Shown here piece after piece: positions 45,022-63,273 of a stretch of 64,000 nucleotides of DNA. Both the position numbers and the translations under genes were made by a program. Origin of the DNA: Spartinivicinus marinus (GTDB lineage: Bacteria > Pseudomonadota > Gammaproteobacteria > Pseudomonadales > Zooshikellaceae); contig NZ_JAPJZK010000001.1 of NCBI RefSeq assembly GCF_026309355.1, forward strand, positions 4,236,501 through 4,300,500, read 5' to 3'. The notes under the pieces are model-generated. The model searched no databases, was not told where the DNA came from, and saw only the letters and a list, made by a program, of their open reading frames with translations. The first letter of the stretch is position 1. Each line of letters starts with the position of its first letter.

Positions 45022-45619
45022 GACAAGCAAATCCTAAATATTGCTGGTGAAGCTGATCCAGTTGAGCATAAAGTTGCTGAAGTGAACCTTGATTGTTAAT
45101 TATATCATTTGCTTTCTGTCGTTTCTTCTCTCGGGGCATTTGTGTTGCCAATATGCGTTGAGCTTGCTCTTTTGACATCTTGTCTCGCTGACAGGCTCTG
45201 GTGATTTGGATTGTTTCAGGCACATCAATAAGTAAAGTACGATCAACAAGCAGATGCTGATTAGTCTCAAATAATAAAGGGGATACCAGCACTGCATAAG
45301 CAGATATAGCCAGCTCTAGTTCTACAATAATTTGCTGACGAATCAGAGGATGCAGTAAGCTCTCTAGCCACTTTTTTTCTACGGATGAATTAAAAATCAG
45401 TTGCCGTAGATATTGGCGATTAAGTGAGCCGTCTTCAAGTAAAACCTGAATACCAAAATGTTCTGTAATGACAGATAAAGCAGAAGAACCTGGTTCTACC
45501 ACTTGTCTGGCAATAATATCGGCATCAACAATGGTAATTTGTTTTGAGTTGGCTAAGTAGTCTGTTGCGGCTGTTTTACCACTACCTATGCCGCCTGTAA
45601 TACCAATCTTATACACCAT
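45014..45619 (-). CDS. coaE: Dephospho-CoA kinase
   Basis: A 201-residue P-loop kinase for the last step of coenzyme A synthesis. The P-loop GGIGSGKT lies at 9-16, the DAD block near 37-39 and the lid residues near 140-160, with the SPLLFE motif near residue 113. It overlaps pilD by 11 bases and yacG by 8, so pilD-coaE-yacG form one transcription unit. Confidence 0.96.
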
Positions 45620-46490
45620 GGAATTTTGCTATTTGTAGATAATTATTCAGTAGAGCCTCACCCCATAAACAAGCGATAATACCCGCAATGGCTAAGTAAG
45701 GGCCAAAGGGGATTTTGCTGTTGCGTTCTTTAAGGCCTAAACCAATCATAGTAATACCTACCAAGGCCCCCACAAAAGAAGACAATAGGATAATAACAGG
45801 CAACATTTGCCAACCAAGCCAGGCGCCAAAGCAGGCTAATAATTTAAAATCGCCATGGCCCATTCCTTCTTTACCAGTCAATAACTTGAAAGCCCAATAC
45901 ACGCTCCACAATGACAAATATCCAGCAATAGCTCCCCAAACTGCGCTGTCAAGGTCAGTAAAAAAGTCGAAATAGTTTAAGGCCAGGCCAAGCCATAAAA
46001 AAGGCAAGGTGATACTATCGGGTAATAATTGTTCATCCAGGTCAATCATGGTGAGTACAATCATGGCAAAAAATAAACTGCTTGCTGCGAGCATTTGCCA
46101 GCTAAAACCGTAGTAATAGGCCGCTGCAACTGCTAGTAATCCAGAGGCAAACTCAATAAGAGGGTAACGAATTGAGATAGGAGCCTGACAATTGGCGCAT
46201 TTTCCTTTTAACAAAATGTAACTCACTATCGGTATGTTTTGCCAGGCTTTAACAGGCGCTTGACACTTTGGGCAGTGAGAGTGAGGAAATATTAAATTAA
46301 ACCTAGCGGGCTCCATAGTAGGAGCCGGTAGCTCAAGAAATTCAGAACATTGGGTTTGCCAGTCCCGTTTCATCATAGTGGGGAGCCGTAAAATAACTAC
46401 GTTTAAAAAGCTACCAATAATCAACCCTAAAAAAAGCGAAACTAAAATAAAAGCCGCAGGACTACTGGCTAAGTAATCGATAATATTCAT
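45609..46490 (-). CDS. pilD: Prepilin peptidase/N-methyltransferase PilD
   Basis: A 293-residue inner-membrane aspartic protease that cleaves and N-methylates type IV pilins and related pseudopilins. The cytoplasmic loop has the paired cysteines C73/C76 and C98/C101. Catalytic aspartates are D150 (TMIDLDEQLLPD) and D214 (GHGDFKLL). About eight membrane helices are visible. Its substrate PilA is encoded at 50057. It is separated from pilC by an intrinsic terminator, so it may have its own promoter. Confidence 0.96.
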   Translation of the reverse strand: MNIIDYLASSPAAFILVSLFLGLIIGSFLNVVILRLPTMMKRDWQTQCSEFLELPAPTMEPARFNLIFPHSHCPKCQAPVKAWQNIPIVSYILLKGKCANCQAPISIRYPLIEFASGLLAVAAAYYYGFSWQMLAASSLFFAMIVLTMIDLDEQLLPDSITLPFLWLGLALNYFDFFTDLDSAVWGAIAGYLSLWSVYWAFKLLTGKEGMGHGDFKLLACFGAWLGWQMLPVIILLSSFVGALVGITMIGLGLKERNSKIPFGPYLAIAGIIACLWGEALLNNYLQIAKFHGV

Positions 46491-46505
46491 TGAAGGAAAA
46501 TACCA

Positions 46506-46533
46506 AATAAAAAGGGCAGTGATGACCGCCCTT
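46506..46533 (-). terminator. Rho-independent terminator after pilC
   Basis: On the minus strand: AAGGGC, GGT-CATC-ACT, GCCCTT, then TTTTATT. One mismatch in the stem. It would partly uncouple pilC from pilD. Confidence 0.75.
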
Positions 46534-46565
46534 ATAATAACAAAACTTGAAGTATAAAAAGCAAG

Positions 46566-47783
46566 CTATACGACAGAACCCAGTTGGAAAATGGGTAAGT
46601 ACATTGCCACAATCAGGCCACCGACTAAGACCCCTAATACGGACATGATAATTGGTTCCATCAAGCTAGTGAGGTTATCAACCATGTTGTCTACTTCTTC
46701 TTCATAGTGGTTGGCTACTTTATCCAGCATTTCATCTAGAGCGCCAGACTCTTCACCAATTCCCACCATTTGCACTGCCATGCTTGGGAAGACAGCAGTA
46801 TTCTTCATAGCAAACTGTAGCTGCTGGCCAGAAGAAATATCCTCTTTAATTTGTCTGGCGGCCTGATAATAAACCACGTTACCAGCTGCTCCTGCCACTG
46901 AATCAAGTGCATCGACTAAAGGAACCCCGGCAGCAAAAGTGGTAGAAAGGGTTCTGGCATAACGAGCAACAGCTGATTTATCAATGATATCGCCAATAAT
47001 CGGTATTTTTAGGACGAAGCGGTCACGACCATCACGAAGCCCTTTTGATTTCTCTAACGCCTTACTAGAAGCAAAGATAAGCACGCCAATACCCGCTAAA
47101 AAGTACAGCCAATAGGCTTGTAAAAATTCTGATATTTGAATAACAAACATAGTAAAAGCAGGTAAGTCAGCACCAAAGCCTGCGAAAACTTCTTGGAACT
47201 GAGGTACCACTTTAATTAATAGGATGGCTGTCACAATGATTGCCACCACCACAACCGCAATAGGGTAAGTCATGGCTTTTTTGATTTTTGCTTTTAATGA
47301 CTCGGTTTTTTCTTTGTAGGTGGCAATTCTGTCCAGCAAGCTTTCCAGTGCACCTGATTGTTCTCCAGAAGCGACTAGACTGCAATATAAGTCATCAAAG
47401 TATTTGGGGCGTTTACTTAACGCTTCCGCTAAGCTACTACCCCCTGCTACATCATTTTTAACGTCATTAACCAAATCACGCATAGTGGGATTTTCACAGC
47501 CATCAGCGGTAATTTCAAAAGACTGGATCAACGGCACGCCCGCTTTCATCATGGTGGCCAGCTGACGGGTAAAGACTGCAATATCCATCGGCTTGACCTT
47601 TCTGCCTTTACCAGCAAAACTGATCGCTTTTTTCTTAACCTTAGTTGGGTTGATCCCCTGCTTACGCAGTTCTGCTTTCACCATGGCAATGCTGGCGCCT
47701 TGGATCTCCCCTTTGGTTTTTCGACCTTTTTTATCTTTGCCTTCCCAGACGAAAGCGCTGGGTTTAACTGCTTTTGTAGCCAT
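46566..47783 (-). CDS. pilC: Type IV pilus inner-membrane platform protein PilC
   Basis: A 405-residue GspF/PilC protein with two T2SSF domains (about 70-195 and 275-398) and three membrane helices (near 172-192, 220-240 and 378-400). The phrase RQLATMMKAGVPL marks the first domain. It converts PilB motor movement into pilin extraction from the membrane. It lies downstream of pilB, but an unusual 262-base gap separates the two. Confidence 0.95.
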   Translation of the reverse strand: MATKAVKPSAFVWEGKDKKGRKTKGEIQGASIAMVKAELRKQGINPTKVKKKAISFAGKGRKVKPMDIAVFTRQLATMMKAGVPLIQSFEITADGCENPTMRDLVNDVKNDVAGGSSLAEALSKRPKYFDDLYCSLVASGEQSGALESLLDRIATYKEKTESLKAKIKKAMTYPIAVVVVAIIVTAILLIKVVPQFQEVFAGFGADLPAFTMFVIQISEFLQAYWLYFLAGIGVLIFASSKALEKSKGLRDGRDRFVLKIPIIGDIIDKSAVARYARTLSTTFAAGVPLVDALDSVAGAAGNVVYYQAARQIKEDISSGQQLQFAMKNTAVFPSMAVQMVGIGEESGALDEMLDKVANHYEEEVDNMVDNLTSLMEPIIMSVLGVLVGGLIVAMYLPIFQLGSVV

Positions 47784-48045
47784 TGGAGTACCTGACTATC
47801 AGATTCCTTGGGTAAGGCCCGCTACCGAGCATTATGTGTTTATAATAAAGGCATTTGTTGATTCCTGTCGCTTATAATGCTACCAGCCTGGTAGCACAGC
47901 AATCACAAAGTACCTTCTAGTTACGTCACAGAATAAGTGTAACGCATGCACGTTAAATCTGTTAGAAACAACCAGTTATAATGCTAACTTGTTCAAATAA
48001 TTAAGGTTTTACCCAGCAGACTTGTTTTACTGCTGAAAGTTATGA

Positions 48046-49737
48046 CTAATCTTTTGTCACTCGGTTTACCTCTTCAAGGCTGGTAATCCCTTGTAATGCT
48101 TTGAGCAAGCCAGAAGTACGTAAGCTATTAAAGCCTTCTTTTTGTGCTTGTTCAGCAATTTGAATCGAGTTGCCTTCTTCCATAATGATTTTTGAAAGCC
48201 CAGGCGTAATTTTAACGACTTCATAGATGCCTAGTCGTCCTTTGTAACCATTGTTACATTTGTCACAGCCCTTAGGTCCATAAAGTTCAGCAGTCTGTGC
48301 TTGTTCTTCAGTAAAACCCTCATGGAGTAGAGCCGTTTTAGGAATATCGGCTTTCACTTTACAGTTACTGCATAACCGTCGAGCCAACCGTTGGGCAATA
48401 ATCAAGTTGACTGTAGTGGCTAAGTTAAAAGCCGGAACCCCCATATTTAATAACCGAGTTAAGGTTTCAGCTGCGCTGTTGGTATGTAATGTAGACATCA
48501 CCATATGGCCGGTTTGAGCAGCTTTTATGGCAATACCGGCAGTCTCTAGATCTCGAATCTCACCTACCATGATAATGTCTGGATCTTGCCGTAAAAAGGC
48601 ACGCAATGCTTGGGCAAAGTCCATTCCTTGCTTAGGATTAACATTAACCTGGTTAATACCTTCCAAGTTTATTTCGACAGGGTCTTCTGCGGTGGAAATA
48701 TTGCGTTCAACAGTATTTAGAATGTTGAGTCCTGTATAAAGTGAGACGGTTTTTCCGCTCCCTGTGGGGCCAGTCACCAGAATCATGCCCTGAGGCTGGT
48801 GTAGAGCATCCATATACATATCTTTTTGGATTTCTTCATAACCTAAACTGTCGATACCCATTTGAGCACTGGTAGGGTCAAGAATCCGTAGAACGATTTT
48901 TTCTCCCCACAAGGTAGGGCAGGTATTAACCCGAAAGTCGATGGCTTTAGTCTTGGATAATTTCATCTTAATCCGTCCATCCTGAGGCTTGCGCCGTTCA
49001 GAAATATCCATAGCAGACATAATTTTTAGTCGTGAAGAAATGCGAGGGGCTAGAGTAATTGGTGGTCTAGCCGCTTCATGTAGTACACCATCTGTTCTGA
49101 ATCTAACCCGATAGCTCTTTTCATAGGGTTCAAAGTGAAGGTCTGAAGAGCCACCTTTAATCGCGCTGAGTAACATCTTATTAACAAATCGAACGACAGG
49201 TGCATCATCGGCTTCATCACCACCCGCAGCGGCTTCTTTCTCTTCTTCACCAGCAGATATTTCGAGAGCATCCAAATCTTCGTCTGCTAAATCACTTAAG
49301 GCATCATCAGCACTTTCGAGAAACTTTTCTATGGCTGCTGATAGTTTATTTTCTTCAACTAAAACTGCATCGATATTTAAACCAGTATTAAAGCGAATTT
49401 CATCTAATGCATTTAGGTTGGTAGGGTCAGAAACGGCAATAAATAAACGATTGCCACGCTTAAGCAAAGGCAGAGTATGGTGCTTTCTAATCAGCTTTTC
49501 ATTGACCAGTTCTTTAGGTGCCTGAGTAAAATCATAACAATCCATATCCATTAAAGGAGAGCCAAACTCTTCTGCTGAAAGTCGAGCTATATCTTTAGAC
49601 TTGACCAAATCTGCTTGGACAAGGTGGGTAACAAAAGGAATTTTTTGTTTAGAGGCTTCTTGATAGGCCTGGCTCGCCTGGTCATGGCTGAGCAGGTTAT
49701 CATCAACTAAACGTTTAGCAAGTCCCGTTAGAATCAT
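48046..49737 (-). CDS. pilB: Type IV pilus extension ATPase PilB
   Basis: A 563-residue hexameric motor. An N-terminal MshEN-type domain (about 1-150) precedes the catalytic domain with Walker A GPTGSGKT (about 322-329), the Asp box, the Walker B/Asp region GEIRDLET and a zinc tetracysteine (CSNC and CDKC). An acidic insertion around residues 150-180 (EEKEAAAGGDEADD) looks slightly longer than in pseudomonads. It is divergent from pilA. Confidence 0.96.
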   Translation of the reverse strand: MILTGLAKRLVDDNLLSHDQASQAYQEASKQKIPFVTHLVQADLVKSKDIARLSAEEFGSPLMDMDCYDFTQAPKELVNEKLIRKHHTLPLLKRGNRLFIAVSDPTNLNALDEIRFNTGLNIDAVLVEENKLSAAIEKFLESADDALSDLADEDLDALEISAGEEEKEAAAGGDEADDAPVVRFVNKMLLSAIKGGSSDLHFEPYEKSYRVRFRTDGVLHEAARPPITLAPRISSRLKIMSAMDISERRKPQDGRIKMKLSKTKAIDFRVNTCPTLWGEKIVLRILDPTSAQMGIDSLGYEEIQKDMYMDALHQPQGMILVTGPTGSGKTVSLYTGLNILNTVERNISTAEDPVEINLEGINQVNVNPKQGMDFAQALRAFLRQDPDIIMVGEIRDLETAGIAIKAAQTGHMVMSTLHTNSAAETLTRLLNMGVPAFNLATTVNLIIAQRLARRLCSNCKVKADIPKTALLHEGFTEEQAQTAELYGPKGCDKCNNGYKGRLGIYEVVKITPGLSKIIMEEGNSIQIAEQAQKEGFNSLRTSGLLKALQGITSLEEVNRVTKD

Positions 49738-50056: not shown

Positions 50057-50500
50057 ATGAAAACCATAAGGCAGCAACAGGGCTTCACCCTGATAGAATT
50101 AATGATTGTGGTTGCAATCATAGGCATATTAGCAGCGGTAGCTATACCTGCTTACCAAGATTATACGGTTAGGACGAAAGTGTCAGAGGGGATGACATTG
50201 GCCTCTGGTGCTAAATCGGCTGTTGCTGAAACACGTTTATCTCTGGGGCGTTATCCAACCTCAACAAATGCTAGCTATGGTTTAGCCGGTAGTACAAAGA
50301 TAACAGGTAATAACGTAGCAAGTGTAGCAGTTGGCGATAGTGGCAAAATTACTGTTACATATAATAATGACACTGCTATTGATACTAAAAAACTAGTATT
50401 AATTCCAACATTAGCAGCTGGTGGAGGCTCTGTTACATGGACTTGTGGTCAGGGGACTTCTGATGTTGATGATAAATATCTTCCAGCAAACTGCAGATAG
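50057..50500 (+). CDS. pilA: Type IV major pilin PilA
   Basis: A 147-residue type IVa pilin. A short basic leader ends at G9, PilD cleaves before F10, and the mature protein starts [17 protein letters not shown] with the essential E5 (E14 of the precursor). The hydrophobic N-terminal helix is followed by a globular head with a disulfide loop C130-C146 next to the C-terminus. It ends in CR, not in the serine that PilO-type glycosylases use. ACGGAG precedes the ATG. A hairpin follows at 50520. Confidence 0.96.
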
Positions 50501-52754: not shown

Positions 52755-53604
52755 CTATTCAATTATAATGCCAGCTAAAAATGAGGCTAAGTCACTTGAT
52801 GAATTAATTCCAAAAATTATAAATATAGCAAGTGATATTAACGCTGAAATTATAGTGGTTGATGATGGGAGTACAGATCATACAGCGGAAATATGCCATA
52901 AATATGGTATTAATTACATTAAAAATCCATACACAAAGGGTAATGGTGCATCTATCAAAGTTGGAGCTAATGAAGCAAATGGAAAATACTTGATATTTAT
53001 GGATGCTGATGGTCAACATGATCCAGATAATATAAAGTTGATGCTTGAAGTGATGAAGCAAGGCATTGATATGGTCGTTGGATCAAGATATAAAAATTCC
53101 CATGCAAATATATCAAGGGGATTTGCAAATAAATTATATAATATACTTGCTAGCTGGATGGTTGGACATAAAATATCAGATTTGACATCAGGATTTAGAG
53201 TGGTTAATGAATATAAGTTTAAACAATTTATTAACTTGTTACCAAATGGATTTTCTTACCCAACAACTATTACAATGGCCTTTTATAGAGCTGGCTATTC
53301 AGTTAATTATGTTCCAATGAGCTTTCACAAAAGAAAAGGAAATAGTCATATTAATCCATTTCAAGATGGAATTAGGTTTCTTCTTATAATATTCAAAATT
53401 GGTACGCTTTACTCTCCATTGAAAATATTTTTTCCACTAAGCATTATACATATACTACTTGGATTTTTTTATTATATTTATACGTATTTCTCTTTTGGAA
53501 CTTTTACCAATATGAGTGCTCTTTTAGTAAGTAATGGATTGTTGATTTTTTTAATAGGACTAGTTTCGGAACAAATAACTGCATTGATTTACTCTAATAA
53601 ATGA
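52747..53604 (+). CDS. Family 2 glycosyltransferase (polyprenyl-phosphate sugar synthase-like)
   Basis: A 285-residue GT2 enzyme. The GT-A domain (1-215) begins YSIIMPAKNEAKSLDELIPK, with nucleotide-binding VVDDGSTD (about 37-44) and the metal site MDADGQHDPDN (about 83-93). Two membrane helices close the protein (about 228-250 and 258-278). This is the layout of enzymes that load a sugar onto polyprenyl phosphate, which is the donor type needed by the GT-C protein just upstream. It overlaps that gene by 8 bases and the next by 4. Confidence 0.82.
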   Translation: MYDYSIIMPAKNEAKSLDELIPKIINIASDINAEIIVVDDGSTDHTAEICHKYGINYIKNPYTKGNGASIKVGANEANGKYLIFMDADGQHDPDNIKLMLEVMKQGIDMVVGSRYKNSHANISRGFANKLYNILASWMVGHKISDLTSGFRVVNEYKFKQFINLLPNGFSYPTTITMAFYRAGYSVNYVPMSFHKRKGNSHINPFQDGIRFLLIIFKIGTLYSPLKIFFPLSIIHILLGFFYYIYTYFSFGTFTNMSALLVSNGLLIFLIGLVSEQITALIYSNK

Positions 53605-54350
53605 ATAAATATAGATATCAGGAAAAGCTATCTAAAGTAACACCAATTCTATTAGATAGTAACTATAAACAGCCGAAAGTTGATAAAATGATATCTATTC
53701 TTACTGATTGTGGAGCACTATCGAGTAATAGAGGACTTGCAATAGATATAGGCTGTTCAGCTGGATTTTTTACTAGAGCCTTGTCACCATATTTTGACAA
53801 TGTTGTTGGTTTGGATATCGATGATAGTGCTTTAACAATAGCTTGCCAGAAGCAAACTTATGAAAATATTACTTATATGATTGGCGACTCAATGAAGTTA
53901 CCTTTTTCTGATAACAGTGTAAATCTAGTTATTTGTAATCATGTGTATGAACATGTCCCTGATGCTGAAAGGCTATTCGAAGAAATTGAAAGAGTGTTGT
54001 CAAATGAAGGAGTATGTTATCTTGGGGCTGCATCAAGACTAACAATAATTGAACCGCATTATAAATTACCATTTCTTTCTTGGCTACCAAAGCTATTAGC
54101 TAATAAATATATTAAAATATTTAATAAAGGTAACGAATATTATGAAAATCTTAAAACTCCTTGGGGGATTAAACGATTAATATCTAAATTTTATGTTAAG
54201 GACTATACGCTTGAAATAGTATACTATCCAGATAAATATTGCGCTAGAGACTTAATAACTAAAGGAGGTTTTATTGAAAAAGTACCAAAATTTTTATGGG
54301 TTTACTTGTATAATTTTTTGCCCTCTTTTATACTTATATTAAAAAAATAG
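53601..54350 (+). CDS. Class I SAM-dependent methyltransferase
   Basis: A 249-residue methyltransferase. Motif I AIDIGCSAGFF (about 49-59) is followed by the acidic end of strand 2 in GLDIDD (about 73-78) and the post-motif CNHVYEHVPDA (about 112-122). It is the last gene of the plus-strand trio, so it probably methylates the sugar or glycan built by the two transferases before it. It ends 8 bases from the convergent flippase-like gene, with no terminator between. The substrate cannot be read from sequence. Confidence 0.78.
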   Translation: MNKYRYQEKLSKVTPILLDSNYKQPKVDKMISILTDCGALSSNRGLAIDIGCSAGFFTRALSPYFDNVVGLDIDDSALTIACQKQTYENITYMIGDSMKLPFSDNSVNLVICNHVYEHVPDAERLFEEIERVLSNEGVCYLGAASRLTIIEPHYKLPFLSWLPKLLANKYIKIFNKGNEYYENLKTPWGIKRLISKFYVKDYTLEIVYYPDKYCARDLITKGGFIEKVPKFLWVYLYNFLPSFILILKK

Positions 54351-54358
54351 TTTGATTT

Positions 54359-55258
54359 TTATTTAAGTCGACTTATTTTTTCTTTAAGATATGCTTTAAT
54401 TAAAAGAGTTAATAAAAAAGTGATAATTTCCCCACCAATTAACCAAAGTCTACTTATAATAGCTAATATTGTGGCTTCAGGTATTGGAATATGTAATATC
54501 AAAATACTGTAAAGTGCTGCTTCTCGGATACCTATCCCTGAAGGAGATAATGAAGAAATAAACCCTATTAAAAAGCTCACTGAAAAAGAAGTTGCAATAT
54601 ATATAGACTTAATAGAGTAAATATTACTATTTCCAAACAGTGCTATATACAATATAAAAAAATTAGAAGAAAATAGTATCCAGTAAAAAAAATAAAATAA
54701 AAATAATTTTAATATTTTTGTTGGAGTTAAGTTAAAAAATTTAGTTGCACTTTTTATAAGATGGGCTGCATGTTTTTTTATTGTAAGCAGTGAGATAAAT
54801 AATATCGATAAAAACAACAATAAACTCATAAAAACAGAATTTGATTTTAAAATATAGTAAATAGTAGGTAATCCAACGGATATTGAAGAAATAGAAATTA
54901 GTACATTTTCAATTAAAATAGATTTTATACAAGATGCTTTTGATATGTTTTCTTTATTAGTAAGATGTATTCGGCTTATATATGGCCATATAATACCTGG
55001 GATGTATCTATAAAATGCCGAAAATATCCATATTTGTAATGATTTTAAATATAAAATATTTTGATTGTCTGATTTTAATATTAGATGCCACCCCATAGCT
55101 GCTAAATAATATATTATAGATAGAAACAATAAAGAAATAATAAATAAATTTATGTTTATTGACCAGGTTAGCTTATTTATCTCACTCCATTGAGTTGAAA
55201 TGATAAAGGCAATAAATAAACCTGATAAAAATAATGTTAGGTAGTTAATAATTTTCAT
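54359..55258 (-). CDS. Flippase-like membrane protein (AglD/LPG-synthase TM family)
   Basis: A 299-residue polytopic protein with about eight helices. The motif SLSPSGIGIREAAL (about 244-257) is the recurring mark of the LPG_synthase_TM/UPF0104 family, found in glycan loci and in the membrane half of MprF. Its role in polysaccharide loci is thought to be moving or using a lipid-linked sugar across the membrane. This is inference from the family. It is the last gene of the minus-strand set, 9 bases after asnB. Confidence 0.72.
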   Translation of the reverse strand: MKIINYLTLFLSGLFIAFIISTQWSEINKLTWSININLFIISLLFLSIIYYLAAMGWHLILKSDNQNILYLKSLQIWIFSAFYRYIPGIIWPYISRIHLTNKENISKASCIKSILIENVLISISSISVGLPTIYYILKSNSVFMSLLLFLSILFISLLTIKKHAAHLIKSATKFFNLTPTKILKLFLFYFFYWILFSSNFFILYIALFGNSNIYSIKSIYIATSFSVSFLIGFISSLSPSGIGIREAALYSILILHIPIPEATILAIISRLWLIGGEIITFLLTLLIKAYLKEKISRLK

Positions 55259-55267
55259 GGTCTTTGA

Positions 55268-57115
55268 TTAGTTAGCCTCTCTCCAAATTAAATAAATATA
55301 AATTGCCCATAACTGAATACTGTAGTCTTTATGAAGCTTACAATGTTCATCTAATAACGCTAAGACAGTATTTTTGCATAATGGAGAGTTAGTTTCTAGG
55401 ATAATTTCTCTTAAATTTCTTCCTAGCTCATTCTGGAACCATTTTTGAATAGGTACAGAAAAGCCTTGTTTTCTACGTCTCCATATCTTTTTAGGTAATG
55501 AAGGTTGGAATGTTTTTCTTAAAATTTTTTTACCTTGTAACCAGCTACGATGGTAATTAGGGGGAAAGGTAAATGCAAAGTTAACTAGTTGTGTATCTAA
55601 AAATGGAGACCTAACTTCTAATGAATTTGCCATTGAAGCTCGGTCTATTTTAAGCAGAATATCTTGTGGTAGGTAAATAAGCATATCTCTTCTCATCATT
55701 TGCTCTACCCCATCAAGCTCTGTTTCTTCAGGTAGTGTGTTAATAATATGTCCATATCCTGTTAACTCTGGACAAAGCCTTTTTTGTAGAGAGCTATTGA
55801 ATACTAATGGTGCAGTATAATTTGGTTCCTTCTGATATTCTTCAGCAAGTTCAATAAATAATTTTGCTTTTTTTATAAGGCTAGCACTGTGATGAACCAT
55901 TGGTTCAGGTATATAATCCAGAATTATTTTTATATTTTTTCTCAATGTTTTAGGTAAACGAAAGAACCAGTTATATAGCACTCGGGCTTGATATCGCTGG
56001 TAACCAGAGAAAACTTCATCAGCACCGTCTCCTGATAAAGCTACCTTAACGTAGGAAGATGTAACTTTAGATAATAAGTAAGTAGGAAGTATTGATGCAT
56101 CTGAGAATGGTTGGCCTATGCTATTAGTAATAAGGGGGATAATAGTTTTATGGGAAGATGATAAGTCAAAATTACTTATTATATGTTGTGTGTTAAATTT
56201 TTTAGATATTTCTTTTGCAAACTTGCTTTCATCATAGCTTTTGTTACAAAATGAAACTGTGAACGTTTTTAAGTTGTTTTTAATTTTATTAGAAATTAGG
56301 CTAACAATAAGTGATGAGTCGATGCCACCAGATAGGAAAGCTCCTATTTCAACATCAGCAACTAACCTCTTTTTTATCGATTTTAATAAAAGGTCTTCTA
56401 GTTTTTCATAACTGTGGTTATTAATATCTTGTATTCTTTTTGTTTCAAGCTGCCAATAAGGCTCTGTTGAATAAGTATTGCCAGGACTCCAGGTTAAATT
56501 ATGGCCTGGTAATACTTCCTTAACATCCTTATAAAATGTATGCCCTGGCAAACAGATACCATATGAGAAATAGTCAGATGTGCTATTAAGGTCTTCACTC
56601 CATGGCGTCTGGTCTAGTGCTTTCAGGGCAGGAAGTTCTGATGAGCACATAAATTCCTCTTTTGCCATTTTAAAGTACAGTGGTTTTTTACCAAAAGGGT
56701 CTCTTGATAAAGTCAGTTTTTTTTCTTTTGTATCCCAAAATGCGATAGCCCACATTCCCTCCATTAATTTAATAAAGCTATCCCCATATAGTGCTAATCC
56801 AGCCAAAATTACTTCGGTATCCCCGGCTGAATTAAAAAACCATTTATCTGCTAGAGAACTTTTTAACTCTTTATAGTTATAAATTTCTCCATTAAAAACT
56901 AACCAATAACGTTTGTCAGGAGTGTGCATAGGTTGCATGCTTGAAGAAATATCAATGATAGATAGCCGAGTATGCCCAAGCACAGCATTTTCAATTGATA
57001 TAATATTTTGTTGATCTGGGCCTCTATGGTATAGCCGGTTAACAGCTAGTTGAGTTCTTTTAAATAAGCTATAAGAGTCATTGTTTTTTGAATAAATAAA
57101 TGTTATGCCACACAT
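55268..57115 (-). CDS. asnB: Asparagine synthase (glutamine-hydrolysing) of glycan-locus type
   Basis: A 615-residue two-domain amidotransferase. The N-terminal class II glutaminase begins MCGIT, with C2 as the nucleophile after methionine removal; RGPD lies near 32-35 and FNGEIYNY near 72-79. The synthase domain has the pyrophosphate loop SGGIDSS (about 258-266). Members in polysaccharide clusters often amidate uronic acid or other glycan carboxylates instead of making free asparagine. The neighbours here favour that, but sequence does not decide. Confidence 0.85.
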   Translation of the reverse strand: MCGITFIYSKNNDSYSLFKRTQLAVNRLYHRGPDQQNIISIENAVLGHTRLSIIDISSSMQPMHTPDKRYWLVFNGEIYNYKELKSSLADKWFFNSAGDTEVILAGLALYGDSFIKLMEGMWAIAFWDTKEKKLTLSRDPFGKKPLYFKMAKEEFMCSSELPALKALDQTPWSEDLNSTSDYFSYGICLPGHTFYKDVKEVLPGHNLTWSPGNTYSTEPYWQLETKRIQDINNHSYEKLEDLLLKSIKKRLVADVEIGAFLSGGIDSSLIVSLISNKIKNNLKTFTVSFCNKSYDESKFAKEISKKFNTQHIISNFDLSSSHKTIIPLITNSIGQPFSDASILPTYLLSKVTSSYVKVALSGDGADEVFSGYQRYQARVLYNWFFRLPKTLRKNIKIILDYIPEPMVHHSASLIKKAKLFIELAEEYQKEPNYTAPLVFNSSLQKRLCPELTGYGHIINTLPEETELDGVEQMMRRDMLIYLPQDILLKIDRASMANSLEVRSPFLDTQLVNFAFTFPPNYHRSWLQGKKILRKTFQPSLPKKIWRRRKQGFSVPIQKWFQNELGRNLREIILETNSPLCKNTVLALLDEHCKLHKDYSIQLWAIYIYLIWREAN

Positions 57116-57121
57116 AACTAC

Positions 57122-58336
57122 TTACTCATTAATAGTTGCATAGTAAAGTTTTGCATATTTACTTCCAGTATTGTTCCAGGTTAGGTGTTGATTGATGATA
57201 AACTGTTTTCCTTTATTTGCTAATATATCGCGATATTTTTTATCGTTTAGTAATATACTAATTTTATTTGATAGTTCTTTATGATTTTTTGGTTCAAAAA
57301 GTAGGCCATTACCTTTAATTAATTCTATCACACCATCTATATTCGATGCTATTACTGGTAATTCTGATGCCATTGCTTCTAAAAGTACGTTAGGCCTTCC
57401 TTCACTTAAACTTGATAAAATAAAAATATCGCTTGATTTGTAGAATTCTATAATTTCATTTGGAGAAATGCTACCAGCAAATGATACTGATTCTCTAATG
57501 TCAAGACTGATGCATAGTTTTTCAAGGTTTTCTCTCTCAATACCATCCCCAATAATATTTAAGAAAGGACGATTAAATTTTGGGAAGGTAGCTAATGCTT
57601 CTATAATTGTATTTATAGATTTCCTTGGTATTAGACTACCGACAGTTAAAAGCTTAAGCCTTAGCTTTTGAGATGATATGGTTTTATTATTTCTTTGTAT
57701 ATTTAGAAAAGTACTAGATACACCGTTTGGTATATGAACTACTTTATCTCTAAGCGTAGGATATTGTCCGATAAGAATTTCTTTCATTTTAGTACTGACA
57801 CATATAACTTTATTATTAGATATAATACATAGTTTTAGTGCTAAGCTATATAATACTGATGTGCTTGCCCTGGAAATGTCTTCACCTCTTAAAGTAGTTA
57901 TAACTGGGGTGTTGAAGAGTTTACCTATAATACCTGCAATAGCTCCAATTGCAGACCAGTTTGCATGAATAAGTTTAGATTTAAAGGCTGCTAATATACA
58001 TTGATAACAAAGGCTTACAATAAAAAGTGGTAGTATCAAATAGGGCCATTTTTTTTGGTGAAGTGCAACAGGTATTCCTCCTGGTTGATGTGCAAGGGAT
58101 TGATATTTTTTTGGAGCATATCTAAAAATTTTAAAATTCTCATAAGGTTGAGCTTCAAACTGAATACTATTTGTTGAGCCAGGTATGATAACTGTACGGT
58201 GAATATCTGGTGGAAGATTATCTATAAGATTTTTTACAAATATACCACTTGAAGAGTTGGTTGAAATAGGGTAAGAGGTTGTAATTACAGATATTTTTGT
58301 TTGCTCTTTTTTATGCTCATGATTAATTAGTTTCAT
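57122..58336 (-). CDS. Family 4 glycosyltransferase
   Basis: A 404-residue GT-B enzyme. The N-terminal half opens ISVITTSYPISTNSSSGIFVKNL, the usual acceptor-domain start of GT4. The C-terminal half contains LLTVGSLIPRKSI (about 235-247) and the E-x7-E motif in SLSEGRPNVLLEAM (about 325-338). It transfers a sugar from a nucleotide donor in the cytoplasm. It lies 6 bases before asnB in the minus-strand operon. The sugar is unknown. Confidence 0.82.
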   Translation of the reverse strand: MKLINHEHKKEQTKISVITTSYPISTNSSSGIFVKNLIDNLPPDIHRTVIIPGSTNSIQFEAQPYENFKIFRYAPKKYQSLAHQPGGIPVALHQKKWPYLILPLFIVSLCYQCILAAFKSKLIHANWSAIGAIAGIIGKLFNTPVITTLRGEDISRASTSVLYSLALKLCIISNNKVICVSTKMKEILIGQYPTLRDKVVHIPNGVSSTFLNIQRNNKTISSQKLRLKLLTVGSLIPRKSINTIIEALATFPKFNRPFLNIIGDGIERENLEKLCISLDIRESVSFAGSISPNEIIEFYKSSDIFILSSLSEGRPNVLLEAMASELPVIASNIDGVIELIKGNGLLFEPKNHKELSNKISILLNDKKYRDILANKGKQFIINQHLTWNNTGSKYAKLYYATINE

Positions 58337-58357
58337 TTTAATTAAAGGAATTATAAT

Positions 58358-59089
58358 TTATTTTTTTAATATAAATATATAGCTGTAAGGCATAAAATTA
58401 TCTGAAATTGTCAACTTGGATAAAATGAAACTAGTTAAATTTTGAAATAAAAAATAAAAGGGTAATATTGGGGTAGCAATACATAAAGGGTTTTTCCGTT
58501 TTAAGCAATTAATGAATGTTTTGCTTATAGCAATATTTTTTAATAAAGCTGCTGTTTCCAGTGGGTGACCCATACTAATAGATTTTACTATTTTAAATCC
58601 TATTTTTTTAGATTTATCAGCCATACCATGTTGAGTAATCCTTATAAAATCTCGAGGAGCATCATGAATTGGATATAGAAATGGTATTTGAATAATTGCT
58701 TCGCCATTTTTTTTTAAAACTCGAAAAGATTCTTTGAGCACAGTATCTAGACATGAAACGTGTTCTAAAACATTTAATAATAGTACTTTATCAAAAATGT
58801 TTGTTGAAAAGGGTAATGTGTGTGCATCACCAAAAATATCAGGTTTTGAAAAGTACCAATTCGAAGCCGTTTCAAGATAATCCAAACCAATATAACTACA
58901 TTGAGAATCTAAATAATATTGAACCCATTTGTCATAACATCCAATATCAAGAATCTTATTAGTTGAGTTTATGTCTTTTAATTGTTTCTTTAAAATTCTA
59001 CTATGAGCTGTATACCATTGAGGGTGAAAAGGGTAGTGAATAAGAGATTCAAGAGCTTTTTTTACTATTCTTAAGTTAATAAGCTTCAT
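58358..59089 (-). CDS. Class I SAM-dependent methyltransferase, divergent
   Basis: A 243-residue protein of the Methyltransf_11 type. Motif I is degenerate (ILDIGCYDKWVQYY, about 45-58, lacking the second glycine). The acidic YIGLDYLE (about 65-72) and LLLNVLEHV (about 108-116) are kept. The C-terminal third has a hydrophobic stretch (about 205-235) that may touch the membrane. It lies 21 bases upstream of the GT4 gene and probably modifies the glycan or its lipid carrier. Confidence 0.7.
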   Translation of the reverse strand: MKLINLRIVKKALESLIHYPFHPQWYTAHSRILKKQLKDINSTNKILDIGCYDKWVQYYLDSQCSYIGLDYLETASNWYFSKPDIFGDAHTLPFSTNIFDKVLLLNVLEHVSCLDTVLKESFRVLKKNGEAIIQIPFLYPIHDAPRDFIRITQHGMADKSKKIGFKIVKSISMGHPLETAALLKNIAISKTFINCLKRKNPLCIATPILPFYFLFQNLTSFILSKLTISDNFMPYSYIFILKK

Positions 59090-59126
59090 CTAAGTTACTT
59101 TTAAATTTGCACATAATATTTATATA

Positions 59127-60320
59127 TTAAACTTTTTTCTTTCTATTTCTAGTAGCACGAATTACCCAGCTGGCACTAGCATTCTTTCTAGCAGCAATTT
59201 CGATATTAGAATAGCCCGTTTTATCTAAGAGACTATGTATATATTCTTGATTAAAGTAGTAAGTTACTGGTGCTGACAAACGATCAAACCAGCCTACAAC
59301 ATTTTCCCTAAATGGAAATCTGGCATATATCCTTCCTGGCACTTTTTTAGATATTTTATCTAAGGCTGATATTTTAGACATAACTCGATAGGGGATTAGC
59401 AAAAAAAGTTCGGATAAAATTGCTAATAAAATCGATATTGCATGTAATAGTTTATGTGGTAGCTTTACAGAAATTTTTCTAAAAAGCTCTATTGGTTTAT
59501 ACCAAAGCTCTCTTTCTCCATAGACCCAAAGGATAAGTGGTGATACTTCTGATAATGTTGTACGTATTCCTTCAAGCGCTTTTTGAGGACTTGGAATATG
59601 TTGTAGTACACCAACAGAATATACAACATCAAACTTTTGTTTGAAAGGTGGTGCATAAGCATCAGCTTGAACTATATGGAGCATAGCAATTTTTTCTGAC
59701 TGAATATATGCACTATCTACTGCTCGGCTAATATCCATTCCTATAACTTCAGCACCCATTTTACAAGCAGTAACCGCAGGTCTACCAGAGCCACATCCAA
59801 CTTCAAGCATTATTTTATTTTTAAAATCCTCTTCTTTTAAAAAAGGTTTTGTGAAGCTAAGAAAAATATCTTTAAAGTGGTCATAATTATTTATAAAGGT
59901 AGTCCATTGATAGCTAAATGAGTTAATGATGTTTTTGTTTTTGTTTTCTGATTTAATTTTTAAGTTGAATTTAAAGCTGAATTTTTCTTCAAATTTTTCT
60001 AAAAAATCTGAATAATTTTTTTCTAAAGTATCTTTTAATATATCTAGTGGTAATATTCTTGGAACACCTTTAATGATTGGGTATTCTACTTTTGTCTGTT
60101 TGCTTGTTAGCTTTCCTGAAATGATTTCTAGGGTATAACAGCTATTACATTCATGCTTGTTAATTAATAATGGACTTGTATTATTTTTATGACACCATTG
60201 ATTGCAACGTACATGTTTTATTTCTATATTACGGGAAAGCTGGCATGACTCAAATACCTCAACTTCAAATTCTTCTTCTGTAGAAGGTTCCTTTAAAAAT
60301 TCTAGCAATCTGTATTTCAT
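59127..60320 (-). CDS. Methyltransferase with N-terminal Trm112-like zinc ribbon
   Basis: A 397-residue protein. Residues 39-61 form a four-cysteine ribbon (C39-x3-C43 and C58-x2-C61), followed by YPIIKGVPRILP, as in Trm112-like domains fused to sugar-locus methyltransferases. The catalytic domain has MLEVGCGSGRPAV (about 172-184), GMDIS, and YSVGVLQHIPSP (about 230-241). The C-terminal part includes a hydrophobic hairpin. It starts 4 bases after the fusion protein gene. The substrate is unknown. Confidence 0.75.
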   Translation of the reverse strand: MKYRLLEFLKEPSTEEEFEVEVFESCQLSRNIEIKHVRCNQWCHKNNTSPLLINKHECNSCYTLEIISGKLTSKQTKVEYPIIKGVPRILPLDILKDTLEKNYSDFLEKFEEKFSFKFNLKIKSENKNKNIINSFSYQWTTFINNYDHFKDIFLSFTKPFLKEEDFKNKIMLEVGCGSGRPAVTACKMGAEVIGMDISRAVDSAYIQSEKIAMLHIVQADAYAPPFKQKFDVVYSVGVLQHIPSPQKALEGIRTTLSEVSPLILWVYGERELWYKPIELFRKISVKLPHKLLHAISILLAILSELFLLIPYRVMSKISALDKISKKVPGRIYARFPFRENVVGWFDRLSAPVTYYFNQEYIHSLLDKTGYSNIEIAARKNASASWVIRATRNRKKKV

Positions 60321-60324
60321 AAAA

Positions 60325-63273
60325 TTAAAATTTTATGGTTATGTTGAGGGGAGAATATATGTTACTTTTTTTTGTTTTTAGTAAAGAGTCGAGATAAATT
60401 ACTATTAAATTATTGTGGGTTTTTAATTTTATTTGTTCTAGTTCTAATTCAGCTTCATTTAGCTTGTTAAGTTTTATAAGGGAGAAAAGATAGTTTAGTC
60501 TCATTTGTAGATCAATAGATTTATTTTGTTTTATGTATTCTTTTACGCTGGATAGTATATTGTAGTGATTTTGTTTGGCAATACTTTTGTAATAATCGTA
60601 CATAGCTACTATCTTTTTGTTATTGCATGTTACATGGGAGTGGTTGTTTACAAATTTTATGATGGTTTCTTTCTTTATCCATAATATATTGTTTGCAGAT
60701 TGGGAGAATTCTCTTATCCACTTGTTTATCGATTTATTATTTTTGCAGATTTGTTTAACTTCTTCTATAGAAGTTGGAATATTGTCCTTTGATAAAATTG
60801 AGAGGCTATTTAATGCTGCTTTTGCAACTTCAAAACTATTATTTTTGCTAATTCTCTCTGGGTTTATACTGTCTTGTTGAGTCCCATTTAAAATACTGAC
60901 TAATCTTAAGTCAATTAGTGAGGCAGCCGTACTGTTCATGAATCTTGTTTTGTCTGCATTCTCTTGTACAATTGGAAAAAAATCAGAATTTGATTGTATA
61001 TTGCCTGCTAATAATATATTTTTTATTACAGGCTTGTATGTTATATGATGGGTTTTTAGGTCAGTGATAGATTCATGATTTATTCTTTTTAATTCACTGG
61101 CTAGTTTTTTGTTTGAAAAGATATCATATAGCTCGGTATGTAACACCTTGTTGGGTGAAGCTATGATAATGTAATCAGAAGGATTTGATGCGTAGAGATG
61201 GTAATCATAAAAAACTTTATCTAGTGATGAAAATATACTAAGAGCTAACTCTGGACTGATCTCATAAGCTTGTAACCATTGAACAAAAAGTCCATCTTCT
61301 TTAACTGATTTCTTAATTAAAGAGTAATACTCGTGTGTAAAAAGGCTCGCAACCCCACTTACCCAGGGGTTTGAAGGCTCTGACATGATAATGTCATACT
61401 TTTTTTGATTTGAAGAGAAAAATGTTTTCGCATCTGCAATGTGAATATTACTTTTTGCTTCCTCATAAGCTAAGTGGTTTCTTTCGTAAAAGTTTTTAGC
61501 GCCTTCAACCATGGCGGGTTCAATTTCTATGGTGTCAACCTGATTTACACGATCACTAGATAAGAAGACATGTGAGGTAAGGCCTGACCCCATACCTATA
61601 ACAGCTACTTGTTTTGGGTTGTTATGTAGTGCGAGTGGTATTGCTGCTGATAATATCATGGTATCTTCATCAGGGCTTGCAGGTCTACTCAGGTGAGTTA
61701 TTCCCGCATCTGGCTTACCATTTGTGGTTATGACTTGCATTGAGTTTTCTTTATCACCATATTCAATAACTGAGATTGTGGCTGTTTTACCATCTTTATG
61801 GTAGATAATTTTTGCTGATTCAGGAGAGACTAAGGTTCCTTTGCGATAGACCCCTGATGCCATTTTTAGTTGATCAAACTTTAAAAATGAAATCAAGAAA
61901 GGGATGATAAGAATGGCTGCTATCTTTAGTTTTGATATCTGAGCTAATGAGGTCAGTAAGAAAAAGCCCATCAATATATCAAGTATACTACCAGAAATAA
62001 TCAGATTTTTTAGCCCCAGTAAAGGCATAATCAATTGTACTGCTATTGCTACCCCTAGTATAGAACCGACTGTATTAGATGAGTATACCCAGCCAATTGC
62101 TCGTTCATTATAACCTTTATTCAATAAAATATAAGTGATTAATGGTAGTGTCATTCCTGCACAAATAGTGGCAGGCAACATCATTACTAAGCAAATAAAG
62201 TGACTAATTAAGTTAAAATAAATGTAACCAGGTTCGGTACGCTGTAAGGCCTGCATGGTAAAGGCCATAAAATCGAAAGTGTAGTTGTAGAAAGTGATGG
62301 TTAAGGCGGCTAAGATTCCCATGATTATTTGGATAAAGCCTAACCATTGAATTGGGTTGGCTATGTTGCTGATTTTATTTCTAATCCAAAAGCCTCCAAT
62401 AGCTAAACCTAGAATAAAAGCACTTAACATGAGTTCAAATGAATGAACGGAACTGCCTAACACCATGCTTAACATGCGGATCCAGGCGACTTCATACATA
62501 AATGATGCAGCACCTGTCATAGCAGCGACAATCAGTAGTATTTTTAAGGTTCTATGATCTGCCGTTTCTTGTTTTTCTAAATGTGGAGGTTGTATTATGC
62601 CAGAGGCAAACTGTTTGCTAATGAACCAAGTAACCAGCGCTACCGCAAAGTTGATAAGTCCAGCGGTTAGCAGTGTACCGGGTAAGCCGACAGTACGAAC
62701 CAAATAAAAACCAGCAACTAGTACACCAATTGCCGCGCCAAAGCTATTAGAAAAATATAAAATAGAGAGTGAGTGGCCTTTCTTTTCAGGAAAATAATGG
62801 ATAAAGCCGGCACTCATTAAAGGGAATGTACTGCCTAATAAGATGGTTTGTGGCAGGATCAACAGAGTCGCTAAACTCCATTTAAAAATTTCGATTGGCC
62901 CACTGCTGCCCAAAAAAGGCATAACGGTATTATAAGCGAAATCGGTACTTGCTACATAGATATTATGAAAGACTAATGCAAGTAAACCAATAATAGCTTC
63001 AACGATTGCATAAGCTAGAAATAAATTACTGAACTTATGTAAGTATTTACTGGTTAGCCATGCTCCGAGGGCCATTCCTCCCATAAAGATAATAAGCACC
63101 AGGGTTTGAGCATAGGCGGCATGGCCTAAAAATAGTTTTAAGTACTGGGTCCAGATGGATTCATAAATGAGTCCTGAAAAGCCAGATAAAAAGAAAACTA
63201 AAATGAGAATATTTCTATTTGCTGCATTTGTTAGGAGTAAGGTGATTCGATCATTAATAGCTAAGGTACTCAT
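60325..63273 (-). CDS. Fused membrane (MFS-like)/spermidine-synthase-like protein
   Basis: A 982-residue three-part protein. Residues 15-465 hold about twelve to fourteen membrane helices. Residues 480-720 resemble spermidine synthase, with GMGSGLTS (about 560), DTIEIEP and MSEPSNPWVSG (about 629-639). Residues 720-982 are a helical tail with repeat-like pairs. Aminopropyltransferases use an aspartate in a DSTDP-type motif. Here it is SEPSNP, so polyamine synthesis is unlikely, though the SAM-type pocket may remain. The family is annotated as fused MFS/spermidine synthase in many marine bacteria, without a known reaction. It is probably the first gene of the glycan operon. Confidence 0.75.
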   Translation of the reverse strand: MSTLAINDRITLLLTNAANRNILILVFFLSGFSGLIYESIWTQYLKLFLGHAAYAQTLVLIIFMGGMALGAWLTSKYLHKFSNLFLAYAIVEAIIGLLALVFHNIYVASTDFAYNTVMPFLGSSGPIEIFKWSLATLLILPQTILLGSTFPLMSAGFIHYFPEKKGHSLSILYFSNSFGAAIGVLVAGFYLVRTVGLPGTLLTAGLINFAVALVTWFISKQFASGIIQPPHLEKQETADHRTLKILLIVAAMTGAASFMYEVAWIRMLSMVLGSSVHSFELMLSAFILGLAIGGFWIRNKISNIANPIQWLGFIQIIMGILAALTITFYNYTFDFMAFTMQALQRTEPGYIYFNLISHFICLVMMLPATICAGMTLPLITYILLNKGYNERAIGWVYSSNTVGSILGVAIAVQLIMPLLGLKNLIISGSILDILMGFFLLTSLAQISKLKIAAILIIPFLISFLKFDQLKMASGVYRKGTLVSPESAKIIYHKDGKTATISVIEYGDKENSMQVITTNGKPDAGITHLSRPASPDEDTMILSAAIPLALHNNPKQVAVIGMGSGLTSHVFLSSDRVNQVDTIEIEPAMVEGAKNFYERNHLAYEEAKSNIHIADAKTFFSSNQKKYDIIMSEPSNPWVSGVASLFTHEYYSLIKKSVKEDGLFVQWLQAYEISPELALSIFSSLDKVFYDYHLYASNPSDYIIIASPNKVLHTELYDIFSNKKLASELKRINHESITDLKTHHITYKPVIKNILLAGNIQSNSDFFPIVQENADKTRFMNSTAASLIDLRLVSILNGTQQDSINPERISKNNSFEVAKAALNSLSILSKDNIPTSIEEVKQICKNNKSINKWIREFSQSANNILWIKKETIIKFVNNHSHVTCNNKKIVAMYDYYKSIAKQNHYNILSSVKEYIKQNKSIDLQMRLNYLFSLIKLNKLNEAELELEQIKLKTHNNLIVIYLDSLLKTKKSNIYSPLNITIKF

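Follow-up and report, generated by a model that had tools for sequence, protein, structure and literature searches.

The fungal protein NHMT (AN4663) is an N-terminal histidine methyltransferase of lytic polysaccharide monooxygenases (LPMOs). According to the available part of its description (PMC10349129), it consists of seven membrane helices and a spermidine-synthase-family domain, resides in the endoplasmic reticulum (ER), methylates secreted proteins, and carries an isoleucine in place of the acidic residue of the GxG(D/E)G motif; the same source reports its seven-helix domain from filamentous members of the Ascomycota and from a single unclassified fungus. In bacteria, the curated NCBIfam family NF037959 is named 'fused MFS/spermidine synthase' after its major facilitator superfamily (MFS) and synthase parts. 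No functional study of this family was found among the literature matches listed, and nothing on it was found in the accessible parts of PMC11107197, PMC7801869, PMC10597711, and PMC12954529. Here we describe a fusion gene located in a 64,000-nucleotide stretch of the Spartinivicinus marinus genome (contig NZ_JAPJZK010000001.1, positions 4,236,501 to 4,300,500), referred to below as the window. It is a single open reading frame (ORF) of 982 amino acids on the minus strand, at nucleotides 60325-63273, where the plus strand is rich in stop codons.

By score the product is a member of NF037959, while by the motif and cut-off tests applied to its sequence it is no spermidine synthase. Our favored reading, which remains tentative, is that of an envelope-facing S-adenosylmethionine (SAM)-dependent enzyme, comparable to NHMT, that would modify the proteins of exported filaments or the sugars on them. 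The family already has a name; the new points are the proposed periplasmic orientation and the link to filaments, for neither of which a paper was found among the literature matches listed.

Domain organization and predicted structure

The features of the fusion gene, all on the minus strand, are the following.

60325..63273, minus strand, MFS/spermidine-synthase-like fusion (P0001), 982 amino acids; NF037959 77.2 bits (cut-off 40), PF01564 78.6 bits (cut-off 22.9)
61939..63234, minus strand, MFS fold with 12 membrane helices, residues 14-445; VIA-align Z 30.0, 3.7 A, 370 residues, 9w1r (SLC37A4)
61876..61929, minus strand, putative 13th membrane segment, residues 449-466; hydropathy of the best 17-mer at least 1.48 in 84/84 homologues, median 2.16
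60904..61875, minus strand, spermidine-synthase-fold domain, residues 467-790, nearly free of cysteine; Z 28.3, 2.9 A, 281 residues, 1uir_A
61582..61596, minus strand, GMGSG, residues 560-564, equivalent to GGGDG of SpeE; alignments with homologues and SpeE
61363..61383, minus strand, SEPSNPW, residues 631-637, equivalent to SDSTDP of SpeE plus the next residue; alignments with homologues and SpeE
60328..60831, minus strand, helical tail, residues 815-982, with the paired C843 and C883; cysteine counts in 84 homologues and helix pairs in the predicted model

The protein thus exceeds the NF037959 cut-off but does not reach that of the NCBIfam speE model (88.3 bits versus 249.55), and the Pfam family MFS_1 stays below threshold (21.1 versus a cut-off of 33.4). 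In an AlphaFold2 model built from 7 sequences, with a mean pLDDT of 77, residues 14-443 match MFS transporters (9w1r, with the values listed above) and residues 468-788 match spermidine synthases (4yv0, Z 27.4, 2.5 A, 263 residues). The split of the MFS part into 12 helices is our own and was taken from this model. A model of the soluble part built from 56 sequences was much better, with a mean pLDDT of 91.4 and a pTM of 0.92, and its comparison with 1uir_A places the predicted structure within the spermidine synthase fold. The first structural match below the spermidine and spermine synthases was the METTL13 methyltransferase (5wcj, Z 16.0, 2.6 A, 184 residues), and in a viral fold library the top row was a Tupanvirus spermidine synthase followed by methyltransferases mixed with unrelated proteins. 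The tail is predicted to be a row of helices starting at about residue 815; the soluble-part comparison, whose rows covered mainly model residues 1-327 (one, 9q41, reached 493), yielded no structure that matched the tail itself. The two models and the structure comparison bear out the build of 982 residues proposed in a preliminary description of this DNA, namely a membrane part, a synthase-like part, and a helical tail.

The altered active site

Conservation was assessed in 84 close homologues, consisting of the window gene, L032, L033, L037, and 80 further loci that were the best 80 of 352 and hence are close relatives, many of them on short contigs. Twelve canonical SpeE proteins from related genomes served for comparison, and human spermidine synthase was also aligned. 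In the alignments with the 12 SpeE proteins and the human enzyme, the DSTDP segment of SpeE corresponds to EPSNP, both aspartates being replaced (D to E and D to N), and GGGDGG corresponds to GMGSGL. With respect to the 12 SpeE proteins, the wider segment SDSTDP reads SEPSNP, and the YHE stretch is gone too. Among the close homologues E632, P633, S634, P636, W637, S639, and G640 are identical in 84/84 and N635 in 83/84; E583, I584, E585, D614, A615, Q665, W666, and Y670, as well as the SAM-type glycines G560, G562, and G564, are likewise present in all. The aspartate of the SpeE motif GxG(D/E)G is serine in 64, threonine in 19, and alanine in one of the 84, so that the motif always reads GxG(S/T/A)G. 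Neither the DxxDP catalytic segment of SpeE nor the GxG(D/E)G motif for decarboxylated SAM was found in the fusion protein or its close homologues, and the loss of the acid of GxG(D/E)G is of the kind given for NHMT in the available part of PMC10349129. More distant relatives differ: L008 and L010 carry SQPSHPW, and others fell outside the search pattern used. As far as the alignments of close relatives go, the replaced site is strongly kept, yet it is not that of an aminopropyltransferase.

These alignments agree with the preliminary description, in which SEPSNPW was taken to stand at the DxxDP-type segment while the SAM-type glycines and the acidic DTIEIEP were retained. The D614-A615 pair is likewise kept, and the aspartate of GGGDGG has to be added to the list of losses. 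The missing aspartate on which that description rested is real, but rather than a peculiarity of the window gene it is common to the 84 close homologues in NF037959.

The loss of both DxxD aspartates of SpeE and the absence of E632 from two distant relatives would also be compatible with an MFS transporter carrying a catalytically dead domain that senses SAM or polyamines, that is, a pseudoenzyme regulating filament assembly. We regard this as quite unlikely because, among the close homologues, few stretches of the protein are as well conserved as the replaced site, W637, Q665, W666, and Y670 being found in all 84; new chemistry therefore fits better than decay.

Polyamine synthesis and the transferred group

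The fusion gene is the only PF01564 hit in the window genome. The AdoMet decarboxylase SpeD (PF02675) was not found in any of the three genus genomes searched, a eukaryote-type SAM decarboxylase not being included in the search; in the whole set it was found in 46 of 115 genomes. Carboxynorspermidine decarboxylase (nspC) scored above its cut-off in the window genome (489 versus 409 bits), and spermidine is therefore probably made there via the carboxyspermidine route. Since SpeD was not found in the genus, decarboxylated SAM is an unlikely donor; aminopropyl transfer by the fusion protein is very unlikely.

A true membrane-located aminopropyltransferase, i.e., a spermidine synthase, would account for the fold (Z about 28 to spermidine synthases) and for the PF01564 score. 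This is nevertheless extremely improbable: the DxxD and GxG(D/E)G motifs are lost, the speE cut-off is missed by a wide interval, SpeD was not found in the genus, and two other genomes, G031 and G094, have an additional ORF of the spermidine synthase type alongside their homologue. Polyamine synthesis was rejected on the first three of these grounds, and the suggestion that the gene has a role beyond polyamines is probably correct.

Other SAM-derived groups, such as 3-amino-3-carboxypropyl, might be transferred to an exported protein or glycan. SAM itself could donate such a group, the fold is that of aminopropyltransferases, and the loss of the acid that recognizes decarboxylated SAM would be compatible with it. 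This seems decidedly unlikely to us, as the one functionally characterized membrane-bound protein of the spermidine synthase family in the literature consulted is a methyltransferase (PMC10349129). Of the transfer of a methyl or aminopropyl-derived group to a glycan that had been suggested earlier, the modification of exported material by a SAM-type transferase is supported and the aminopropyl part is very unlikely.

Orientation in the membrane

The charges of the loops predict 12 helices with the N-terminus inside, with a mean of 2.06-3.54 lysines and arginines per loop inside versus 0.01-1.44 outside, the helix borders having been set by us from the model built from 7 sequences. They are followed at about residues 449-466 by a 13th hydrophobic segment whose best 17-mer, besides the values listed above, reaches at least 1.6 in 81 of the 84 homologues. 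As controls, the medians for helices 1-12 were 1.75-2.27 and that for the best 17-mer of the soluble domain was 1.34. Residues 436-450 contain a mean of 2.6 lysines and arginines, with at least one in 84/84, versus 0.17 in residues 462-468, the two stretches being unequal in length.

Cysteine is nearly absent from the domain, with 9 in 27,464 residues (positions 475-800) and none in 75 of the 84 proteins. The 12 SpeE controls have 44 in 3,311 residues, and the AroC, LeuB, LeuD, Asd, LeuC, ABC, and GT2 clusters of the same loci have 0.44-1.60%. A cluster labelled M48 (0.75%) was excluded from this cytosolic control because it was mixed. The C-terminal part of a cluster of TMTC-like and tetratricopeptide repeat (TPR) proteins from these loci has 0.61%, and in 12 rows of distant NF037959 members the corresponding stretch holds 0 to 2 cysteines. 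As for the tail, 74 of the 84 homologues have C843 and 70 have C883; 69 have both, 6 have one, and 9 have none, and the spacing ranges from 39 to 52 residues. Together, the 13th segment, the positive-inside charge, and the near absence of cysteine apart from the tail pair are indirect evidence for the periplasmic side, the pattern being the one expected of a periplasmic domain that carries a single disulfide. The preliminary description had a membrane-bound transferase of SAM type, which is supported, and left its side open; that side appears to be periplasmic.

In the MFS half, the charged residues E92, K131, E261, R266, and E280, all inside predicted helices, are kept in at least 95% of the homologues, a conservation that would be easier to explain for a functional carrier than for a part that serves only as an anchor.

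Association with type IV pilus genes

Neighborhoods were counted in 83 loci, leaving out the window, with genes called by a simple ORF script and some contigs being short. L034, L035, and L036 duplicate L082, L074, and L101 and were not counted; if they are included, prepilin ORFs occur in 17/87 loci. The density of ORFs with a prepilin motif, per 100 kb, was 7.17 at less than 1 kb from the fusion gene, 2.86 and 3.04 in the next two intervals, 0.43 at 3-5 kb, and 0.24 at 5-10 kb (11, 4, 4, 1, and 1 ORFs, respectively). PilB/GspE-like ATPases (phmmer, E < 1e-10) were found in 17/84 loci, on the same strand in 17/17 and within 3 kb in 10. A pilin or PilB-like gene lies within 3 kb in 18 of the 83 loci, a number that rises to 22 when glycosyltransferase genes of the GT-C type are added and to 24 with the whole TMTC/TPR cluster. 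The immediate same-strand neighbors (n = 81, at least 100 amino acids, at most 350 bases away) include 9 that match pilin and prepilin families and up to 13 that match TPR families. On a quick tree, the pilus linkage changes 10 times when the window and L033 are left out, and 8 times after the further removal of the long rows L037 and L074. The linkage is therefore found in a minority of loci but is recurrent, and it is not one inherited island. A cluster label 'PilB/GspE' was dropped since 6 of its 23 ORFs had no PilB match; counting with the bait leaves the union of 18/83 unchanged.

Near pilin genes beside the fusion gene, five loci (L112:8583-9335, L118, L113, L083, and L049) encode a family of about 250-310 amino acids, the sole scanned member of which had no Pfam match. 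Two copies of the fusion gene occur in L041, L112, L118, L077, and L117, and in the first three of these loci pilin genes lie between the copies.

The locus in the window and in the genus

The other features of the window relevant to this locus are the following.

55268..60320, minus strand, glycan-type genes behind the fusion gene: two methyltransferases, GT4, and an asparagine-synthase-type amidotransferase; profile matches, not conserved in the genus
54359-55258, minus strand, flippase-like gene, after the glycan-type genes
50057..50500, plus strand, type IV pilin gene pilA; PF00114 94.4 bits, PF07963 40.3 bits
50865..53604, plus strand, TMTC-like multi-membrane glycosyltransferase candidate (putatively GT-C) and polyprenyl-phosphate-sugar-synthase-like GT2, adjoining pilA
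45612..49737, minus strand, pilD, pilC, and pilB; pilD retains PF06750 and PF01478

In the window the fusion gene is separated by 4 bases from the next gene and is followed by five genes on the same strand, with galE directly upstream. In the second genus genome pilA, the fusion gene, galE, and nadC form one group, and nothing but short ORFs separates pilA from the fusion gene. In the third, some of the cargo differs, and the flippase-like gene is the only one behind the fusion gene on the same strand. A more distant relative has the order nadC, pilA, fusion gene, pilB, pilC, pilD, and in L099 the order is fusion gene, pilA, pilB, pilC, pilD. The position at the head of a glycan operon, which had been given as support for the role of the gene, is therefore true of the window genome but not of the second genus genome, and in the third it is reduced to the flippase-like gene. 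As the gene content between pilA and the fusion gene differs across the three genomes, the glycan operon represents variable cargo, and it was rejected as the sole explanation.

On the plus strand of the window, pilA is followed at 50865-54350 by the TMTC-like gene, the GT2 gene, and a methyltransferase gene, perhaps a set for pilin glycosylation; the TMTC-like protein had no Pfam match of its own. A replacement of the methylation step of PilD by the fusion protein was rejected, PilD retaining both of its domains.

Decoration enzymes and OmcS genes near the fusion gene

TPR-bearing neighbors of the fusion gene are of several kinds, namely GT-C type, GT41, and sulfotransferase. A cluster initially labelled 'TMTC-TPR' proved mixed and was divided into GT-C type and TPR-only proteins. 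Those of the GT-C type contain 6 or more membrane helices and in most cases an FxxDD-type motif, and they lie within 2.5 kb of the fusion gene in 7 loci. Of 14 N-terminal parts examined, 3 matched PF13231 (dolichyl-phosphate-mannose mannosyltransferase; best 1.1e-07), and PMT_2 matches also occur among the fusion-gene neighbors; the membrane part of the TMTC-like neighbors gave no PDB profile match. In L067 a GT41 glycosyltransferase gene starts 8 bases behind the fusion gene and ahead of two pilin genes, and in L049 and L115 sulfotransferase genes (PF13469) follow the fusion gene, their products having an N-terminus judged by eye to be TPR-like. Thus the GT41 and sulfotransferase genes stand, near pilins, where the GT-C gene would, a hint that the groups added to pilins vary from lineage to lineage.

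This setting bears on another explanation, which gives the idea of the preliminary description a concrete form: a glycan methyltransferase facing the cytoplasm and fused to a flippase, in which the domain would methylate a lipid-linked sugar and the MFS part would flip it. SAM is available in the cytoplasm, glycan genes follow the fusion gene in the window, and the GT-C type glycosyltransferases found near it would need lipid-linked sugars. We consider this explanation unlikely: a periplasmic domain is favored by segment 13 and by the distribution of cysteines and of charges, the glycan cargo varies within the genus, and neither the GT41 enzyme nor the sulfotransferases need a lipid-linked sugar.

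The accessible part of PMC9473688 describes OmcS and OmcE filaments as surface-glycosylated and OmcZ filaments as not, and that of PMC10599522 places GSU2502, a 'spermidine synthase' whose membership in NF037959 is unconfirmed, beside omcT and omcS in Geobacter sulfurreducens. In Geomonas (L052, L066, and L093) the fusion gene lies among TMTC-like genes, a gene for an NHL-type protein, and genes for two hexahaem cytochromes, and the Geomonas cytochrome tested is OmcS (6ef8, E 1.5e-120). Nineteen OmcS regions, picked by us among at least 67 places, were fetched from Geobacteraceae; TMTC-like genes were found in four (L123, L124, L125, and L134) and the fusion gene in one (L134, from the genome of L093). 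The fusion gene is therefore an optional addition to the OmcS module.

In L123, L124, L125, L134, L052, and L066, TMTC-like and NHL-type genes lie directly upstream of two OmcS-like hexahaem cytochrome genes. L123-L125 have this arrangement without the fusion gene, and these are candidate genes for the reported glycosylation of OmcS filaments.

A role in glycan-linked modification is thus partly upheld, in that glycosyltransferase or sulfotransferase genes are neighbors in several lineages, but the recurrent partners are pilins and, in Geomonas, OmcS.

Proposed mechanism

In the mechanism that we tentatively favor, the MFS part and the 13th helix would keep the spermidine-synthase-fold domain at the inner membrane, on its periplasmic side. 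The donor would be SAM rather than its decarboxylated form, and the group transferred would be small, most likely methyl. The acceptor may be an exported filament subunit, in the window a pilin, or a sugar on it, and E632 of EPSNPW, at the position of a SpeE aspartate, would either bind the acceptor or serve as the base. SAM would leave the cytoplasm through the MFS part, and the spent nucleoside would return by it. In its fullest form this would be a self-supplying periplasmic SAM enzyme whose MFS half exports SAM and whose synthase-fold half modifies pilins, OmcS filaments, or their sugars, which we consider conceivable but rather doubtful; such a reaction would be the bacterial parallel to the methylation that takes place in the ER lumen.

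Several observations weigh against such an envelope-facing enzyme. SAM is not known to occur in the periplasm, and the paper listed by a search of the literature on SAM transporters, the periplasm, and methyltransferases concerned yeast. Low cysteine is no rule for exported proteins, the pilins of the same loci having 1.71%. The two distant relatives with SQPSHPW have glutamine in place of E632, so the proposed role of this residue is not extendable to the whole family. SpeD is present in four other homologue-bearing genomes (G031, G036, G041, and G094), and the argument from its absence is therefore strong only within the genus. In the window the pilin gene lies 9.8 kb from the fusion gene, and pilB, pilC, and pilD are up to about 15 kb away; since PilD retains both domains, no vacant methylation step is evident in the window genome. 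The fusion gene's presence in a single OmcS region of the 19 also counts on this side. A clade of 19 rows, mainly betaproteobacterial, lacks pilin and PilB-like genes at distances of up to 3 kb, and 13 of these rows have leu, asd, or aroC neighbors; a FimV-type gene found further off in six was taken by us as ordinary flank there. Finally, in 59 of the 83 loci neither pilin nor PilB-like nor TMTC/TPR-cluster genes lie within 3 kb, a count to which contig ends contribute. This last count also qualifies the neighborhood survey called for by the preliminary description: the family neighborhood is not unrelated to glycans, as it would have had to be to refute that description, but most loci show none of the partners counted.

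If the proposed function is correct, at least this branch of NF037959, now annotated as a polyamine enzyme, would be re-assigned to the modification of exported proteins, and its members would become candidates for genes that decorate type IV pili and OmcS-type cytochrome filaments. A periplasmic location of the domain would in addition admit SAM chemistry outside the bacterial cytoplasm, with the transporter built into the enzyme.

Comparison with known systems

The window gene shares with NF037959 the MFS and synthase build, but its branch differs from the model by the long tail with a cysteine pair, and the family name implies polyamine synthesis. With SpeE the fusion protein has in common the fold and the nucleoside-binding motifs; it differs in the replacement of both DxxD aspartates and of the GGGDGG aspartate, in the added MFS part and tail, and in the genus genomes in which no SpeD was found. 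The METTL13-type methyltransferase 5wcj, as solved, is a soluble domain without an MFS part. NHMT, as described in the available part of its report (PMC10349129), resembles the fusion protein in having membrane helices, uneven in number, followed by a spermidine-synthase-family domain; it is eukaryotic with 7 helices, whereas the fusion protein is bacterial with a predicted 12 + 1.

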